Part shown: positions 19,274-26,235 of the stretch, in pieces | How the letters are laid out: each line of letters opens with the position of its first letter | Numbering within the stretch: the stretch's first letter is position 1 | Assembly: GCA_016791385.1 (NCBI GenBank) | Contig: JAEUMR010000022.1 | Coordinates: 31,980 to 95,979 of the forward strand | Direction: 5' to 3' | Source: Hyphomonadaceae bacterium | Lineage (GTDB): Bacteria; Pseudomonadota; Alphaproteobacteria; Caulobacterales; Aquidulcibacteraceae | Length of the DNA: 64,000 nt | Program-made: the position numbers and the translations under genes | Notes under the pieces: generated by a model | The model's input: the letters and a program-made list of their open reading frames with translations, nothing else | The model's database searches: none | What the model was told of the DNA's origin: nothing

Positions 19274-19363
<90 letters not shown>

Positions 19364-19418: not shown

Positions 19419-20462
19419 TCAGCGCGCGCGTGCGCGTAACCGTCCAAGTTCGTAGAGGTCGTTGCGGGTGAGGCCAAGGCGCGAGCTGACGGCGGCGGTG
19501 ACGGCCCGGCCCAGTTGGCGTTCGAGCCGATCCAGTGCGCCGATTTTCTCACGCACGCCGGCGCCAAGCGCGGCCTGCCCTCCATCGTGCGTGGAGAGCA
19601 TCAATTCTTCGGCGCGAAGGACGAGTTCGAGCTTCAATTCCACATAGGCGAAGACTTGGCCGGCGTCGGCGTTGCGAAGCGCGGCGAGGTCTGCGCGCAA
19701 GGCTTGGCCCTGTTCTCCTGCCCAAAAGCGCCCGGCGCGAATATCTTCAAGCAAGACCCGGTGCGCCGCAGCATCGGAGGCGAGCCAGACGCGTGTAGCG
19801 CGCTCGCTTTGGGCCAAGGTGGAGAAGAGGATGAGGGGGGCGAGGAACGCGGTGGCGACCATCGCCATCAGCGGCTGCCCCGGGAAGTGATTGAACAGCG
19901 AATGGCACGCCATCGCCACCGCAAGGCCGGGCGCAAACGGGATCGGATCGAAGTGATACTGCGCGGCGGGCGCTGCGGCCTGCTTTTCCAGCATCTCATG
20001 CGAGATGACGGCGAACAGCGCGCTCGCGGCGCCATGCATGATCGCGGTGCCGAAGCCGCGCACGAGCCAATCGGTGGCATTGGTTCCCGAAAGCGTGGTG
20101 AGATACCAGAGGTTCTCCGCCACCGAAAAACCGGCGCCGACAGCAAAGCCGGCGATCGCCGCTTCGATTTTGAAGCCAAGCCGATTTCTGGCGTACAGCG
20201 CGATCAGGGGCGCGGCTTTGAGACTCTCTTCGATGATGGGCGAGACATAGCGCGTGAACGCGCTCCAGCCGATTGGAAAGCCGTCCAGAACGCGCCAGTT
20301 GGCGATGAAGCTCAGCAGCGCCAGCGCTGCGCCCGTCGCCAGCAGCGCGCCGATCTCGCGCATCGGGATGAGGTCGAACACATCGAGCCGGTCGAACACG
20401 AACAGCAGGATGAGAACCGGCGCAATGGCGATCGCCGCCTTGAGCAGGAGATCCGCAGGCAT
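19419..20462 (-). CDS. PrsW-type intramembrane metalloprotease
   Basis: A 347-residue polytopic protein with about seven or eight membrane helices in the first 240 residues. All PrsW motifs are present: EESLK (~78-82), GAGFSVAEN (~110-117), MHG (~142-144) and CHSLFNH (~185). These residues form the zinc/catalytic site in the PrsW/CPBP (Abi-like) superfamily. A ~110-residue cytoplasmic tail, rich in Leu/Arg/Glu and probably coiled-coil, follows. ATG 20462 overlaps the upstream peptidase stop (TGATG); a GTG three bases earlier is also possible. PrsW of Bacillus cleaves an anti-sigma factor; the target here is unknown. Confidence 0.85.
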   Translation of the reverse strand: MPADLLLKAAIAIAPVLILLFVFDRLDVFDLIPMREIGALLATGAALALLSFIANWRVLDGFPIGWSAFTRYVSPIIEESLKAAPLIALYARNRLGFKIEAAIAGFAVGAGFSVAENLWYLTTLSGTNATDWLVRGFGTAIMHGAASALFAVISHEMLEKQAAAPAAQYHFDPIPFAPGLAVAMACHSLFNHFPGQPLMAMVATAFLAPLILFSTLAQSERATRVWLASDAAAHRVLLEDIRAGRFWAGEQGQALRADLAALRNADAGQVFAYVELKLELVLRAEELMLSTHDGGQAALGAGVREKIGALDRLERQLGRAVTAAVSSRLGLTRNDLYELGRLRARAR

Positions 20463-23400
20463 CACATGATCTTCAAAGAGAGCAGCACTTCATCGCCGCG
20501 CCGTTGCCCATCCTCAAAGCCGCGGGCGTAGCCGAGCGACAGCACCATGGGCAGGCGGTGGGCGGCAGTGAAATTCCAGTCCATTTGCACCCCGGCGGTC
20601 TGCAGCGAGCGGCGCGCACCGGTCGCGCTTTCCACTTCAAGGCCGCCGGCGAACAGCGCGGTTCGGAGTGAGCTGAGATAGAGCGCGGCGACGCCCACAT
20701 CTTCGAAGCGGACAGGCGGTAGGTTGAGTTCACCCACGGCGCGGACGAACCGACGCGCGCCGATTTCGTCGATGTCGAAGCCGGGGAAGCTATCGTAGTG
20801 GCGGTAGCGCTTGATCTCGCGATCATCGACGTAATTGTTGCCGAAGGCGCCGATATAGAAGCTTGAGAGCGGGCTTGTCTCGTCGCCTTCGATGGCGCCG
20901 GCGGCTGTGTAGATCCAGGCCGATGAATTGTTCAACGGCAGCGGCACGCCAACATCGAGGCCCGCGCGCAGGCTTGGAAACACATCGCCGTTGGCGTGGT
21001 CGGCGCCCGCAGCGAGTGTCCAGGCCCAGCCGCGCTCGTGATCAACGGCGCCGAGGGAGCGGGTTTCGTTGCTGTAGTGGAGTTCAGCGTTCAGCGTGGC
21101 GAGCGTATCGAACTGGCTTGAAGCCACCTCTTGTGCAGCCGGAAGCGTATCGAGACCGGTGTAATAGGCGCCGGTGATGTCGAGGTCGAGCTGCCGGGGC
21201 GGATCGTAGATGAAGGAGCGGCGATAGCCGGCGATCAGCGCATCGCCGGCGCGCGCGCGCTCGGTTGGGCCGAAGAGATCGTAGAAATCTGCGTCATTGT
21301 GCCAATAGCGCAGCCGCCAGCGCAGCGTTCTGTACTCGATGTCGAAATGCCAGTCTTGATCTTCGAACTGGGAATTGACCGTGCGCGAGAGTGTGGCGTT
21401 GAGTTGATTGAATTGCAGCGGATCTTCGTAGGTGACGTGATAGCCAAGCGCTACGCGATTGCGATATCCCTCGATCACTGGATAGGCTGCGCCGAGGCGC
21501 ATCTCTTCGCGCGGACGATAACGCCCCTGGGCTGTGATCATGGTCTCGAACGGGACCGAAGCGGGCGAACCGACGGTCCAGCTTTGCACGATGGGGTGTT
21601 CGCGCGCGATCTCGGCGCCGAGGAAGCGGACCGTCCCCAAATCCTGCAGGGGGGTGGGTTCAATGACGACGGGCTGAAAGCCGGCGCCGGTATATTCGTA
21701 GACGACCAGCGTCCCGTCCGGGCGCGGAATGGGTCTGAAGAAGCCGGTTTCGGCGTTGCTGACCGCTTCGATCTGCTGTGTCGCGAGCTCGAAGCGGAAG
21801 ATGTTGGACACGCCGGTGTAATAGGCGCTGCCATAAAGGTAACGTCCGTCGGGCGAGAAGACGAAGCCCTCGGGTGTCGATGCGCCGAGGGTGAAGCGGG
21901 TGGTTGGTTCGGCGCTGCCGGCAAGCAGATCCTGCGTGTTGAACACTTCCACGGCCTGCTCGCCATTGATCTCGCCGACCGAGGCTGAGAGCAGCGCCCC
22001 GTCCGGTGAAATGTCGAGGTCGAACGCGGTGCGGCCGAACGGGAATGTGTGCACCTGGTTCCAGCTGGAATAGGGCGGCGGGATGCGCACCAGGGTGACG
22101 TAGCCGTTGAGGTGGCGCAGGCCCCACAGCGAGCGATCCTGAGGATTGAAGACGATGTCGCCGATGCGCCCGTCGCGTAGCACCATGTACTGGCGCCCGG
22201 TGGCGACATCGATTTCCATGATGTCGCGATACGCGTAGTTGTCCGTGGTGTACCAGGCCGTGTTGGACTGTGGGTCATAGGCAAGTGAAGTGACGCGGTA
22301 GAGCATCGCGCCCTTGATGTCGGCGAGGCGGCGAATGGCGCCGGTCTGCGGGCTGAGCACGCCGACATGGGCGATGACGCCCGGATAACGGAAGGCGCCG
22401 ACCAGCGCGCCGGTGCGCGGGTCGATGAAGCTGCGGGAAATCGATCCTAGCGCGCGGGGCGCCAGCGGCTGGCCTTGAGTGAGCGGATAGGCATTGAGCG
22501 CGTCAAGATTGGCGCGCTGGAAGCGGTGCTCCCAGTCGATCCAATCGGCCCAAGCTTGCGGCAGGCGAACGCCGAAGACGCGGGCGAATTGATCCTGGTA
22601 ATAGGCCGCGCTCTCTTCATCGCGCCGCAACCATTGGATCACCTGCTCTGGCGAGTATTGCATCGCCAGATAGCTGAAGAAGCGCGTGCCATAGAGATAG
22701 TCATTCACCCCGACTTGGAAGTCGGTGAAGATGCCTTCCGATTCCAATCCCACGGGGGAATAGAAGTGCGCATCGTCACGCACCATTGAGCGGAACACCA
22801 TTTCGTCATAGGCGCCTTGCGCGCGCCCGAAGCCGCCCGCCATCCAGGTTTCCATGAAGACGGCGCTGCCCTCCAGATACCAGCGCGGCACGTTCACGCG
22901 TGGTGTCGTCAGATAATTGTAGAGAATAGTCTCCGGGTGCGCCTCCACCGGCATCGGCTTGCCGAAGAAGAGGCGCCGCCATCGCGCATCGTCGCTGTTC
23001 CAGACATCCATCAGCGCCACGTGCGTGAGTTCATGGTCGGTGAGAGTGAAGAAGCGCTCGCCCGGACTGAATGTGTCGAAAGCCAAGCTCAAGGGGGCAA
23101 CGTCGATCAGCATCGCGTTGTTGGGCGAGGCGCGTGCAGCCGCATTGCCGTAGTCAGAAAAATCCTTGAGCAGGAGCGTTGTCTGCTCCCAGGGCCGCCA
23201 GCCGAACATGCGCTGCTCGTAGGCCATCGCGTTTTCGAAGCTGCGGCCGAGGTATGGCGTGAGGTAGGTTTCGGCTGGATCGAAATAGAGCAGGCGCAGT
23301 CGCTCTGTTTCGATCTGCGCCAGATCGATCAAGGGGATGTCGTCGGGGGCCCGGCTCGGCGGCGGCTGCGTTGAGGGAGCAGGCTCAACGACGGGTGGGG

Positions 23401-23521
23401 CCGGGACGCTAGTTTCTGGCGCAGAGGCAGGCGCCGGCGTCTGTTCGCTCGTTTGCGCATGCGCCGGCGAAAGCTGCGCAAGCAACAAGACGGCGAGACA
23501 TATCCCCCAGCGCACTCTCAC
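20462..23521 (-). CDS. Exported gluzincin peptidase / beta-propeller / putative outer-membrane barrel protein
   Basis: A 1019-residue multidomain protein. Residues 1-22 are a cleavable signal peptide ending AHA, and 23-60 a Pro-rich linker. A thermolysin-like domain follows with HELTH (163-167) and the downstream Glu217 in WYLEGSAVFME, the HExxH...E arrangement of gluzincins. Residues ~350-640 show repeated strand blocks with SPDGRYLYGSAYY and SPDGALL, a TolB/YncE-like propeller. The last ~340 residues are alternating beta-strands with many aromatic residues, resembling an outer-membrane barrel, ending in LSLKIM. The start ATG 23521 begins the signal peptide. It sits between the repeat protein and prsW genes. 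Confidence 0.78.
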   Translation of the reverse strand: MRVRWGICLAVLLLAQLSPAHAQTSEQTPAPASAPETSVPAPPVVEPAPSTQPPPSRAPDDIPLIDLAQIETERLRLLYFDPAETYLTPYLGRSFENAMAYEQRMFGWRPWEQTTLLLKDFSDYGNAAARASPNNAMLIDVAPLSLAFDTFSPGERFFTLTDHELTHVALMDVWNSDDARWRRLFFGKPMPVEAHPETILYNYLTTPRVNVPRWYLEGSAVFMETWMAGGFGRAQGAYDEMVFRSMVRDDAHFYSPVGLESEGIFTDFQVGVNDYLYGTRFFSYLAMQYSPEQVIQWLRRDEESAAYYQDQFARVFGVRLPQAWADWIDWEHRFQRANLDALNAYPLTQGQPLAPRALGSISRSFIDPRTGALVGAFRYPGVIAHVGVLSPQTGAIRRLADIKGAMLYRVTSLAYDPQSNTAWYTTDNYAYRDIMEIDVATGRQYMVLRDGRIGDIVFNPQDRSLWGLRHLNGYVTLVRIPPPYSSWNQVHTFPFGRTAFDLDISPDGALLSASVGEINGEQAVEVFNTQDLLAGSAEPTTRFTLGASTPEGFVFSPDGRYLYGSAYYTGVSNIFRFELATQQIEAVSNAETGFFRPIPRPDGTLVVYEYTGAGFQPVVIEPTPLQDLGTVRFLGAEIAREHPIVQSWTVGSPASVPFETMITAQGRYRPREEMRLGAAYPVIEGYRNRVALGYHVTYEDPLQFNQLNATLSRTVNSQFEDQDWHFDIEYRTLRWRLRYWHNDADFYDLFGPTERARAGDALIAGYRRSFIYDPPRQLDLDITGAYYTGLDTLPAAQEVASSQFDTLATLNAELHYSNETRSLGAVDHERGWAWTLAAGADHANGDVFPSLRAGLDVGVPLPLNNSSAWIYTAAGAIEGDETSPLSSFYIGAFGNNYVDDREIKRYRHYDSFPGFDIDEIGARRFVRAVGELNLPPVRFEDVGVAALYLSSLRTALFAGGLEVESATGARRSLQTAGVQMDWNFTAAHRLPMVLSLGYARGFEDGQRRGDEVLLSLKIM

Positions 23522-23590
23522 GCCTTGGACGCTAGCACGGGCGAGAGCGCAGCGATGGCCGCCATCTCCCGCCCGGCGCGAAAGTGCCCG

Positions 23591-25315
23591 TCAATTCGCC
23601 CGAATGGCGTTGGCGAAGCTGGCATCGCGCGCCATCGCCGCGAAGGCGGGCTCACGCGCCAGCGCAGCAAAGGCGGGCTGACGTGCGAGCGCGGTGAACG
23701 CCTGCGCATTGGCGGCGAGCGCCTGCAGCGCCTGAGGATTGCGCGCCATCGCCGCGAACGCCTGCGGGTTCTGCGCCATCGCCGCAAACGCTTGCGGATG
23801 TTGCGCCATCAATTGGAAGGCTTGCGCATTAAGTCCCTGTGCGGCGCGGGCTGCGCCAGCCTGCGCTTGGAATGCCTGCGCATTGCGCGCCATGGCGGCG
23901 AGGGCGGCGCTGTTTTGCGACAGCGCCTGGAACGCCTGCGCGTTGGCCGCCATCGCCTGGAACGCCTGTGCGCTTGCGCTGAGCGTGCTGAGCGCCTGCG
24001 CGTCCCGCGCCAGCGATTGGAACGCCTGAGCGTTGGCGCCGAGCGCCTGGAACGCTTGTGCATCAGCGGCGAGAGCGCTCATGGCTTGTGCATCGCGCCC
24101 CAGCGCCTGGAAGGCCTGGGCGTCCTGGGCCATCGCCACGTTGGCGGCGGGGTTGCGTGCGGCGGCGGCGAAATTGGCGCCGCGTGCGAAGCTGGCGAAG
24201 GCGGCAGGATTGGCGGCCATGGCCGCGAACGCTTGCGGATGGCGGGCGAGCGCGGCGAAGGCTTGCGGGTGCTGCGCCATGGCGGCGAAAGCTTGCGGCG
24301 CACGCGCCATCGCCGCGAACGCTTGGGCGTTGGCGGCGAACGCCGCAGCGGCGCCCGCATCGAAGGCGCGTGCGGTTTGCGCTTGAGACTGGAACGCCTG
24401 GGCGCTCTGCGCCATCGCCGAGAGCGCTTGGCTATTGCGGGCAAGCGCTGCGAACGCTTCGGCGTTGGCGGCCATCGCTTCGAATGCGGCGCTGTTGGCG
24501 GCGAGCGCGCTAAAGGCCTGGGCGTCGCTCGCGAGCGCCTGGAACGCCTGCGCATTGGCGGCCAGCGCCTGGAACGCTTGTGCGTCAGCGGCGAGCGCGC
24601 TCATGGCCTGCGCGTCAGCGCCAAGCGCCTGGAACGCTTGTGCATCGCGCGCCATGGCTTGTTGGGCCTGCGGATTGGCGACGGCTGCAGCGAAATTGGC
24701 GTTGCGTGCGAACGCGCCGAAAGCTTGAGGATTGCGCGCCATTGCGGCGAAGGCTTGAGGGTGTCGCGCCAGCGCCGCAAAGGCTTGGGGATGTTGCGCC
24801 ATCGCCGCAAACGCTTGCGGCTGGCGCGCCATGGCGGAGAACGCGGCGGCGTGCTGGGACATAGCTGCGAACGCTTCGGCGTTCGCAGCTTGTGCGCTCA
24901 TGGACTGGGCGGCGCCCGCCTCAGCCGAACGGGCGAGCAGTGCGAACGCTTGAGGATCGCGCGCGAGCGCTGTGAAGGCCTGCGCATCCTGCGCCATGGC
25001 CAGCAGCGCCTGTGGATTTTGTGCGAGCGCGGCAAAACCCGGATCAGAGGCGAGCGCTCTGAAGGAGGGGTCGCGCACCATGAGTTCGAACGCGTCGGTC
25101 TGCATCAGCAGCGGGACTGCATCGTCGCCGAGGCGCACATCGCTGTCGCTGACCTGCGCAGAGCGATAGCGCTCAGCCGGCGCGATGGTGCCGCTCATCT
25201 GCGCGCCGCCCGGGGGCGAGACGGTGCCGATCGCAAGAGCTGCAAAGGCGGCGATGCCGAGGCCCGCCGTGGCCGCAGCGCCAAGCTTGACGCTGTTGGA
25301 GAGCGTGGTGCGCAT
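23591..25315 (-). CDS. Secreted or anchored alanine-rich decapeptide-repeat protein
   Basis: A 574-residue protein. The start is ATG 25315 after a strong aggaggagga ribosome-binding site; earlier in-frame codons lack one. Residues ~10-30 (LGAAATAGLGIAAFAALAIG) form a signal peptide or anchor. From ~75 to 570 the sequence is about 50 tandem units of ten residues, consensus QAFxA(M/L)Axx(P/A), in which position 9 is often N, D or H. No other domain, catalytic motif or Cys cluster is visible. Units are themselves arranged in two ~170-residue super-repeats plus a third partial one. I do not recognise the family; the NP-and-Phe pattern distantly recalls STI1-like helical repeats. Same strand, 69 bp upstream of the peptidase/barrel gene. 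Confidence 0.85.
   Translation of the reverse strand: MRTTLSNSVKLGAAATAGLGIAAFAALAIGTVSPPGGAQMSGTIAPAERYRSAQVSDSDVRLGDDAVPLLMQTDAFELMVRDPSFRALASDPGFAALAQNPQALLAMAQDAQAFTALARDPQAFALLARSAEAGAAQSMSAQAANAEAFAAMSQHAAAFSAMARQPQAFAAMAQHPQAFAALARHPQAFAAMARNPQAFGAFARNANFAAAVANPQAQQAMARDAQAFQALGADAQAMSALAADAQAFQALAANAQAFQALASDAQAFSALAANSAAFEAMAANAEAFAALARNSQALSAMAQSAQAFQSQAQTARAFDAGAAAAFAANAQAFAAMARAPQAFAAMAQHPQAFAALARHPQAFAAMAANPAAFASFARGANFAAAARNPAANVAMAQDAQAFQALGRDAQAMSALAADAQAFQALGANAQAFQSLARDAQALSTLSASAQAFQAMAANAQAFQALSQNSAALAAMARNAQAFQAQAGAARAAQGLNAQAFQLMAQHPQAFAAMAQNPQAFAAMARNPQALQALAANAQAFTALARQPAFAALAREPAFAAMARDASFANAIRAN
23795..24817 (-). repeat. Two large super-repeats inside the decapeptide-repeat gene
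   Basis: Residues 167-340 and 341-507 align almost end to end. Both start QAFAAMAQHPQAFAALARHP, both contain the off-register insert (NANFAAAVANP versus GANFAAAARNP), both then have DAQAFQALG and DAQAMSALAADAQAFQAL. The period is 174 residues (522 bp) and 167 residues for the second copy. A third, shorter copy starts at about residue 508. This indicates segmental duplication on top of the ten-residue unit. Confidence 0.85.
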
Positions 25316-25521
25316 GTCGATCCTCCTCCTCGCGCCGTTAGCGTGCGGCCAAACATTACCTTCCGTCAACGATTGTTTGAGGCCGGAGCCTGCGACCTGC
25401 CTTTGCGAGGCAAGCCGTGCATGAGCGGAGACCGACGACGAGTGTAAGCGTCATTTCGGCTGGAGCGCTTGCCCCGTAGCCGGCGGCGGCATGCCGATGG
25501 ACGCCGTGGTTGCCCGCATCT
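25316..25521. other. Upstream region of the repeat-protein gene
   Basis: This 206-bp gap holds the repeat gene's ribosome-binding site at its left end and separates it from the end of the LuxR-type gene. No convincing terminator, promoter box or ORF was seen; a weak TTGC-gag-GCAA hairpin lies near 25403. Confidence 0.4.
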
Positions 25522-26235
25522 TTATTTCACAGCCAGCTGGTGCAGCAGGGCGGCGGCTTCGATCTGAGATTTGACGCCGAGCTTTGCGAACAGCGATTTG
25601 AGCTGCGCGCGAATGGTGTGTTCCGATACGCTGCGTGCAAGTGCGATCTCGCGCACCCGGCGCCCTTGGCGAAGCATGCCGGCGACCGCCGCCTCTGAAG
25701 GCGTCAGGCGAAAATCGCGAAGCAAGTGTTCTTGGTTCTCGCGCTCGCTCGCCGCGGAGTCCGTTTCAGTGAATGTCACGCAGACGACGGACCGTTCCGC
25801 CGCTGCATCGCCGGCTGCAGGCAGCGGCGAGGCCCGGATGCGTCTGAGAACGCCATCGCCCAACGCCACCAAGCCTTCATGCTCGGTGTTCGATGCGCGT
25901 GCGGCGTCGATTATGGAGGCGACGGCGCGGTCGTTGACAAGCAGTTCGCGGTCAACGATCGCCAGCGTCTCGCCGTGCCCGGTAAGACGGCGCGCGGCTT
26001 CATTGGCAGCGACGATCTTGTTCTCGGCGGTCAGCAACAGAACCGCATCGCGCAGAGCCTCGAAAGCAAGGGCGTACAGACAGGACGGGACCGTCCCAAC
26101 GCCGTCATGTGCGCATGAGTAGGGCGATTTGACCGCTTGGCGCGTTCGGCGCGGCGCCCCCTCAGCGCCGCCAGGCACGCCGCCCGCCGCGCCAATTCCC
26201 TCTCCGACGATCGAGTCTGTCTTTGGAAAGTCCAT
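25522..26235 (-). CDS. PAS-like domain LuxR-family transcriptional regulator
   Basis: A 237-residue protein. The middle part (~50-150: YALAFEALRDAVLLLTAENKI then AANEAARRLTGHGE) looks like a PAS sensor. The C-terminus is a GerE/LuxR helix-turn-helix with LTPSEAAVAGMLRQG and SVSEHTIRAQLKSLFAKLGV. No receiver domain is present. The first ~45 residues are low-complexity, so the true start could be internal; ATG 26235 has aaggggg upstream. It lies just upstream of the repeat-protein operon on the same strand and may control it, but nothing in the sequence proves this. Confidence 0.82.
   Translation of the reverse strand: MDFPKTDSIVGEGIGAAGGVPGGAEGAPRRTRQAVKSPYSCAHDGVGTVPSCLYALAFEALRDAVLLLTAENKIVAANEAARRLTGHGETLAIVDRELLVNDRAVASIIDAARASNTEHEGLVALGDGVLRRIRASPLPAAGDAAAERSVVCVTFTETDSAASERENQEHLLRDFRLTPSEAAVAGMLRQGRRVREIALARSVSEHTIRAQLKSLFAKLGVKSQIEAAALLHQLAVK

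Follow-up and report, generated by a model that had tools for sequence, protein, structure and literature searches.

What is a protein for that consists almost entirely of ten-residue repeats, and which genes accompany it? The question is raised by a locus in a 64,000-nucleotide stretch of DNA (the window) from a Hyphomonadaceae bacterium (GenBank assembly GCA_016791385.1, contig JAEUMR010000022.1, positions 31,980 to 95,979; coordinates below count from the first letter of the window). An original prediction, made from the letters alone, had described a secreted decapeptide-repeat protein of 574 residues. Its gene (gene 1; 23591..25315, minus strand) is found here to be the first of three genes on the same strand. 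Gene 2 (20462..23521, minus strand; 1019 residues) lies 69 nucleotides (nt) past gene 1 and codes for a signal peptide, an HExxH domain, a TolB-like propeller and an Omp85-like barrel, and gene 3 (19419..20465, minus strand; 348 residues), whose start abuts or overlaps the gene 2 stop, codes for a PrsW-family intramembrane protease. The repeat protein bears a hydrophobic anchor followed by an invariant tag, behind which the type of repeat is exchanged in related cassettes. Taken together, the three genes look like a route, not described before, by which bacteria would release and export long repeat proteins. The original interpretation is partly supported; it had overlooked the tag, the PrsW gene and the exchange of repeat type.

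Organization and distribution of the cassette

Scanning a genome collection yielded 38 gene 1 loci from metagenome-assembled genomes and isolates, labelled as Hyphomonadaceae, Caulobacteraceae, Caulobacter, Phenylobacterium, Sphingomonas, Sphingomicrobium, Croceicoccus, Wenzhouxiangella or, for the remainder, unnamed Alphaproteobacteria, Proteobacteria and the like; species-named carrier isolates include Sphingomonas rhizophila (KACC 19189), S. alba (SE158), and S. edaphi. A gene 2 homologue follows gene 1 on the same strand in all 35 loci whose contig continues, the contigs of the other three (L045, L065, L067) ending within gene 1 or about 100 nt beyond it. The gap between the two genes is below 160 nt or, an effect of taking frames from the first possible start, negative in 34 of the 35, and amounts to about 840 nt in L062. 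Where at least 700 nt remain beyond gene 2, gene 3 directly follows or overlaps it every time (30 of 30 loci); the remaining five (L036, L047, L056, L063, L070) have 0-185 nt left past it. Outside the three-gene span, no gene recurs in at least six of the 38 loci.

The same linkage emerges when the genes are searched singly. Among 61 genomes (the organism's own and 60 relatives), genes 1, 2, and 3 are all found in the same 16 and the other 45 have none of them (Fisher p 5e-15, ignoring relatedness). Each carrier genome has one locus, with the three genes neighbouring by coordinates; several extra match rows of this search represent fragments of a single locus or its antisense echoes, and gene 1 of G017 and gene 2 of G024 are split over contigs. 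A same-genus sample (G000-G029) holds the cassette in 15 of its 30 genomes, so it is seemingly gained or lost as a unit. At the level of the class, five of 385 genomes have gene 2; a profile of the repeat finds gene 1 in four of these, and the fifth is G064, which is considered below. A further match to the repeat profile, in G268 (8.6e-6), was dropped, as it contains four stops.

A sample of 398 genomes of the phylum returned the own genome and three partial gene 2 matches over the peptidase region, all in one genus. These distant relatives (L111, L112, and L113 in G653, G542, and G683) code for 944-957 residues in small genomes, and L111 scores as a TolB propeller and weakly as BamA. In none of the open reading frames of at least 150 residues next to them (first 100 and last 40 residues inspected) did we notice a tag protein, with only 101 bases available upstream of L111. 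They are possibly a stand-alone sibling of gene 2. Carriage on plasmids was rejected, as no plasmid matched gene 2.

An invariant tag behind a predicted membrane anchor

Gene 1 begins with an ATG at 25315, 5 nt behind a purine-rich stretch that resembles a ribosome-binding site when read directly (AGGAGGAGGA, 25321..25330, minus strand), and its stop ends at 23591. Residues 11-29 (25229..25285, minus strand) form a hydrophobic segment. In 43 homologues, a set without the window protein, this segment reaches a Kyte-Doolittle mean of 1.3-2.5 over its best 19 residues and its N-terminal side is net positive or neutral, never net negative; several of the neutral cases are due to a chosen start that cuts them short. 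Since inspection by eye showed no recurrent A-x-A site in the gene 1 N-termini, we read the N-terminus as a putative N-in/C-out anchor. The signal or anchor segment of the original prediction looks like an anchor, which does not support the label 'secreted'.

Behind the anchor lies the tag (residues 42-76; 25088..25192, minus strand; GTxxPxxRYxxxQxxxxDVxxGDxxxxxxMQTDxF), which is invariant across repeat types. The aligned gene 1 homologues (37 members, L045 and L065 being left out because a contig end cuts gene 1) are 39-82% identical and 217-597 residues long. Their invariant columns are G42, T43, R49, Q54, D59, G63, L70, M71, Q72, T73, D74, F76, and F94, of which the tag holds 12 of 13. By sequence comparison, gene 1 is most conserved in the segment behind the anchor and not in the repeat. 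When N-termini of the QAF, SNAA, SQAA, and DSAAKAAA types are aligned together (31 sequences, G875 and G881 outside), 11 positions remain invariant over all four types (G42, T43, R49, Q54, D59, G63, M71, Q72, T73, D74, F76); the 13 of 44 N-termini left out of this alignment also keep the tag.

The bodies behind this tag differ in kind. QAFxALA decapeptides are present in G874, G876 (where about 100 nt of contig are left beyond gene 1), G877, and G878, an SNAA/QNAA body in G813, SQAA bodies in G064 and G854, and DSAAKAAA bodies in G826, G827, and G843. In G064, a 435-residue protein upstream of gene 2 has the same anchor and tag with an SQAA-type body instead; in the family of this genome, gene 2 and the tag are each found in 12 of 96 genomes, 11 being common to both. 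The SNAA, SQAA, and DSAAKAAA bodies contain almost no Phe, Met, or Leu, and their far C-termini differ as judged by eye. Two mosaic proteins carry AAEGLAAQGR (G875) or EALGH (G881) repeats in mid-body and QAF-type decapeptides at both ends, and appear from their sequences to be intermediates of repeat replacement. Both mosaics (L156 and L128 in G875, L157 and L127 in G881) come from assemblies that break within the repeat: as in G877, genes 1 and 2 lie on separate contigs, with a matching gene 1 end directly upstream of gene 2 on the second one. In G841, the 245 nt of contig upstream of gene 2 (L132) translate into successive GNA tripeptides until a stop codon, and the contig ends before the tag would be reached; this is perhaps the end of a further, non-helical body type.

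The repeat body of gene 1

In the window protein the decapeptides occupy residues 77-574 (23594..25087, minus strand). Past residue 70, self-identity is 0.46 at an offset of 10 and 0.45 at an offset of 20, the highest value that 200 residue-shuffled versions reached at offsets from 1 to 59 being 0.27. The estimate of about 50 units was about right: a pattern count gives 48, some matches being out of phase, and the AlphaFold2 model has 46 helices from residue 74 onward, four of them long. The predicted super-repeats proved exact, with super-repeat 1 at residues 145-318 (174 residues; 24362..24883), super-repeat 2 at residues 319-485 (167 residues; 23861..24361), and a partial third at residues 486-574 (23594..23860, all on the minus strand) that is 51% identical to super-repeat 1 over 80 residues. 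Accordingly, the self-offset of 174 is the highest (54%) and that of 341 (174 plus 167) is also high (37%). Super-repeats 1 and 2 are 75% identical in protein and 70% in DNA, with 82% at codon positions 1 and 2 and 45% at position 3. Because protein identity stands so far above that at third codon positions, the two are, on their sequences, an old duplication held by selection and not an echo of assembly. They are not essential to the cassette, as seen from L056 (5998-6648), where gene 1 has just 217 residues, with room for about 14 units, and is followed by a gene 2 of 989 residues. The predicted frame itself was confirmed on the minus strand, with a ratio of nonsynonymous to synonymous substitution rates (dN/dS) of 0.044-0.119 in six pairwise comparisons of close relatives. 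A 664-residue open frame on the plus strand (23453..25447), which could mislead gene callers, is read by us as an antisense by-product of gene 1.

The AlphaFold2 model, built with 37 sequences, reached a mean predicted local distance difference test score (pLDDT) of 75.5 and a predicted template modelling score of 0.61. It places one helix of 8-9 residues in each decapeptide, in agreement with the short stacking helices that had been proposed. Taken by tens, pLDDT is 80-96 for residues 141-470 and only 47-78 for residues 71-140 and 471-574; residues 1-64 lie mostly below 50, including a low-confidence N-terminal helix at residues 7-31. When the gene 1 fold was searched against the PDB and against viral models, nothing matched at E 0.001; long proteins search poorly in general, and the absent match is no proof of a new fold. 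That no family had been recognised was borne out as well, since the window protein has no informative curated family in Pfam or NCBIfam.

Profile matches to phage proteins were examined with reversed sequences. Although 32 of 37 gene 1 members match phrog_7809, and the gene 1 profile matches PDB 7qlr at 4.5e-13, the repeat of L041, the one member tested, matches the phrog_7809 family at 2.6e-25 forward and 1.1e-23 reversed. The match being independent of direction in L041, it reflects period and composition, and homology to phage tail fibres was rejected. A tblastn search of residues 76-574 against phages found nothing, a weak result as the low-complexity filter of BLAST was on.

The partner proteins encoded by genes 2 and 3

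In gene 2, residues 65-345 (22487..23329, minus strand) are modelled as a putative metallopeptidase domain. Its HELTH motif (HExxH; residues 163-167; 23021..23035, minus strand) is invariant in 32 of 32 aligned proteins, as are H163, E164, H167, and E217 individually (incomplete genes in L036, L047, L063, and L070 and loci lacking gene 2, L045, L065, and L067, being left out). E217 (22871-22873, minus strand) is presumably the third metal ligand of the HExxH/gluzincin type. PF13485 Peptidase_MA_2 matched in 1 of 32 members (E 0.0082), and no PDB sequence matched better than E 0.66 when 24 of the 32 rows were used, eight being left out of the peptidase-domain alignment. A propeller follows at residues 346-624 (21650..22486, minus strand), and residues 664-1019 (20465..21532, minus strand) form the C-terminal barrel, in which we count 16 main strands in the model, the number of the Omp85 fold. 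Its match to BamA (8xnb) has an E value of 2.1e-6 at rank 23, and PF19143 Omp85_2 gives weak matches in 5 of 32 members (best E 0.0042). The 'partner barrel' that had been conjectured for the repeat protein thus exists and is encoded by the next gene.

Gene 3 passes the curated cutoff of PF13367 PrsW-protease (53.9 bits, cutoff 23.5) and fails that of the NCBIfam equivalog NF033739, a model of 210 positions (24.1 bits, cutoff 225). As it scores far under the latter, it is classified by sequence as a member of the PrsW family and not as an equivalog of the Bacillus enzyme. RsiW, the anti-sigma factor cleaved by PrsW in Bacillus, is a single-pass membrane protein. In one account, the PrsW motifs are defined as EExxK, FxxxE, H, and HxxxD/N, the changes E75A/E76A or H175A show functional importance in Bacillus PrsW, and the enzyme is described as cleaving RsiW (PMC12943098). 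The corresponding positions of gene 3 (E79, E80, and K83; F113 and E117; H144; H188 and N192) are invariant in 31 of 31 aligned proteins, L042 being left out at a contig end.

A possible route of release and export

The reading we prefer, at somewhat less than an even chance, is that the three genes form a cassette for processing and export, with gene 1 as its dedicated cargo. The gene 1 protein would insert into the inner membrane by its hydrophobic anchor, N-in/C-out, so that the flexible invariant tag lies right outside the membrane, ahead of the long repeat body. Cleavage by the PrsW protease at or near the tag would then free the protein; gene 2, held in the outer membrane by its Omp85-type barrel, would recognise the tag via the propeller and/or the peptidase domain and trim the repeat body and/or pass it to the surface, where its final role may lie. 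Conservation is highest in the 35 residues outside the anchor and the bodies behind them are swapped, the pattern of a cargo that fixed machinery recognises. The obligate partnership of the three genes and the far C-termini, which by eye differ in the SNAA, SQAA, and DSAAKAAA types, also speak for this reading. The low model confidence over residues 1-64 fits a flexible ligand or cut site, and a release-and-export cassette is favoured since the Bacillus PrsW target is membrane-anchored and gene 1 is predicted to be anchored as well. A fuller version is less probable: a previously unrecognised envelope pathway, in which PrsW in the inner membrane releases a tagged and anchored fibre that an Omp85-like barrel with a propeller and a zinc peptidase, in place of POTRA domains, processes and displays at the surface, tag and machinery being fixed and the repeat unit of the fibre swapped between lineages. 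A proposal of similar bearing is found in a computational study that suggests PrsW as a release or export peptidase in polymorphic toxins (PMC3482391). No description of the three-gene set was found among the matches listed from the open-licence literature (titles and starts of abstracts), most subscription papers lying outside this search.

Several observations weigh against this account. The tag occurs once per genome wherever it is found (12 of 96 and 15 of 61 genomes, gene 1 of the 16th carrier among the 61, G013, being cut by a contig end), which rules out a general sorting tag. Within the genus, the gene 1 repeat is under strong purifying selection. In the G875 and G881 mosaics, the C-terminal cap resembles the one in the window protein, and the far C-terminal end of gene 1 may therefore matter, as a tether would need. 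We know of no Omp85 protein with a gene 2-type N-terminus for which translocation was demonstrated. POTRA is absent from the 22 Pfam families matched by the 32 gene 2 members at E up to 1, and the residues ahead of the barrel are modelled as the HExxH domain and the propeller; Omp85 subfamilies lacking POTRA are described in PMC4104836.

Alternative explanations

The main rival is a trans-envelope tether, which we consider doubtful: gene 1 would stay anchored in the inner membrane, its body spanning the periplasm to hold or regulate the gene 2 enzyme, like TolA to TolB or TamB to TamA, and a PrsW cut would switch the link off. Such a tether would account for the three-gene partnership, the anchor, and the QAF-type ends kept in the G875 and G881 mosaics, and these ends strengthen it at the expense of the cargo reading. 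TolA combines an inner-membrane anchor, an alanine-rich helix, and a C-terminal domain III and works with TolQR. Gene 1 has a predicted anchor and an alanine-rich body, and the cassette, like TolA-TolB and TamB-TamA, would pair an extended protein anchored in the inner membrane with a partner of propeller or Omp85 type at the outer membrane. It differs in having PrsW as a third gene, in the absence of the TolA and TamB families among the Pfam matches listed for gene 1, and in the lack of an additional linked gene that could act like TolQR. Against a tether stand, moreover, the cap, which inspection by eye does not find in the SNAA, SQAA, and DSAAKAAA types, and the spread of gene 1 lengths over the aligned set given above.

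An improbable explanation is that the decapeptide solenoid is a periplasmic holdase, i.e. an STI1-like chaperone with a hydrophobic groove that hands clients to the gene 2 barrel or peptidase. Phe, Met, or Leu recur once per turn in the decapeptides, and with STI1/HOP DP, XPC-binding, and ubiquilin repeats gene 1 shares short helices split by N/D-P turns. At E up to 1, whole gene 1 proteins match STI1-HOP_DP in 28 of 37 cases and XPC-binding in 26 of 37. Among ten relatives scored whole, L043 passes the cutoffs of both STI1-HOP_DP (38.6, cutoff 29.1) and XPC-binding (42, cutoff 26.4), and L042 and L056 pass that of XPC-binding only; in none of the three does any stretch pass singly. Unrelated families also pass their cutoffs, namely YlbE (L069), Cons_hypoth95 (L054), DUF447_N (L046), and Herpes_HEPA (L042), so whole-repeat scores are inflated. 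The column-permuted repeat of L041 reaches Extensin at 5e-14, its reversed repeat reaches other weak families with STI1 not among them, and its residue-shuffled form has no match. Such whole-protein Pfam matches, YlbE and XPC-binding included, were rejected. As whole-repeat Pfam scores are unreliable, STI1 was tested again on post-tag segments of 62-63 residues from 10 of the 37 gene 1 members: all ten matched STI1-HOP_DP forward (E 2e-4 to 0.07, all under the cutoff) and none reversed. The window protein fails the cutoff of PF17830 STI1/HOP DP (29.1) with 18.6 bits as a segment and 11.5 as a whole. The distant STI1 likeness proposed earlier is thus weakly supported, by the directional segment matches, and we take it as likeness, not membership. 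The SNAA, SQAA, and DSAAKAAA bodies, nearly devoid of Phe, Met, and Leu, speak against a holdase, and the missing PDB fold match may do so as well. In addition, gene 1 differs from STI1-type repeats in its roughly 46-50 units and in being exchanged for non-hydrophobic repeats in related cassettes.

Regulated proteolysis in the manner of RsiW and PrsW, by which gene 1 cleavage would signal to the cytoplasm, is very improbable despite the PrsW gene and the predicted anchored target, as only about 10 residues lie ahead of the anchor, no effector domain is present, and the LuxR/PAS gene upstream has no homologue in the 38 loci.

Comparison with known systems

One parallel to the preferred cargo reading is two-partner secretion (type Vb), in which a TpsA repeat protein with a conserved N-terminal recognition segment is exported by an adjacent Omp85-superfamily TpsB barrel. 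The cassette likewise joins the genes of a repeat protein with a tagged N-terminus and variable body and of an Omp85-superfamily barrel, gene 2 being the adjacent Omp85/TpsB-type partner. The differences are these: the repeats are helical and of the decapeptide type, not the beta-helix of TpsA; a 35-residue tag takes the place of the TPS domain, and the anchor lacks an evident signal-peptidase site; a peptidase and a propeller stand where TpsB has POTRA, and an intramembrane protease is added. The TPS domain is not among the Pfam and NCBIfam matches listed for gene 1, which is modelled all-helical.

Gene 2 itself resembles the WD40-Omp85 subfamily (Heinz and Lithgow, 2014, PMC4104836), whose members link an Omp85 barrel to a propeller resembling TolB. 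Unlike these proteins it adds an HExxH domain and has fixed partners, none of which is named in the part of that source available. With the PrsW/RsiW pair of Bacillus subtilis, the cassette shares a PrsW protease and a putative single-pass target whose predicted topology matches that of RsiW; gene 1 lacks an anti-sigma domain, the triad includes an outer-membrane protein, and gene 3 has 348 residues compared with the 210 positions of the NCBIfam model. Myxosortase, a glutamic intramembrane protease, is described as sorting surface proteins, and its relative MrtJ adjoins a single target (PMC11980579). The pairs myxosortase/MYXO-CTERM and MrtJ/JDVT-CTERM thus also combine a glutamic intramembrane protease with a tagged protein, there a surface protein. 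In the cassette, however, the protease is of the PrsW and not the CPBP family and has one candidate target only, and the tag follows an N-terminal instead of a C-terminal membrane segment.

Neighbouring genes and implications

Directly upstream of the cassette, 25522-26235 (minus strand) encodes a regulator with a PAS domain and a LuxR-type helix-turn-helix; without a homologue at E 1e-4 in the 38 loci, it was rejected as part of the cassette. On the other side, a tRNA-Ser (CGA) gene (19274-19363, plus strand) is separated from the gene 3 end by 55 nt. L046 and L057 also have a tRNA-Ser (CGA), at most about 500 nt away from gene 3; in L040 and L053, it is a different tRNA that lies upstream of gene 1. 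Since a tRNA gene close to the cassette, present in the window and in 4 of the 30 scanned loci, is not a constant feature, a tRNA-linked mobile island was rejected; the arrangement hints at integration near tRNA genes in some lineages.

With its partners recognised, an orphan repeat protein becomes a three-part system open to experiment. The cassette offers a likely PrsW substrate outside the sigma-factor pathway and a set of partners for a protein of the WD40-Omp85 type. With at least six different repeats behind one tag, it also constitutes a natural experiment.

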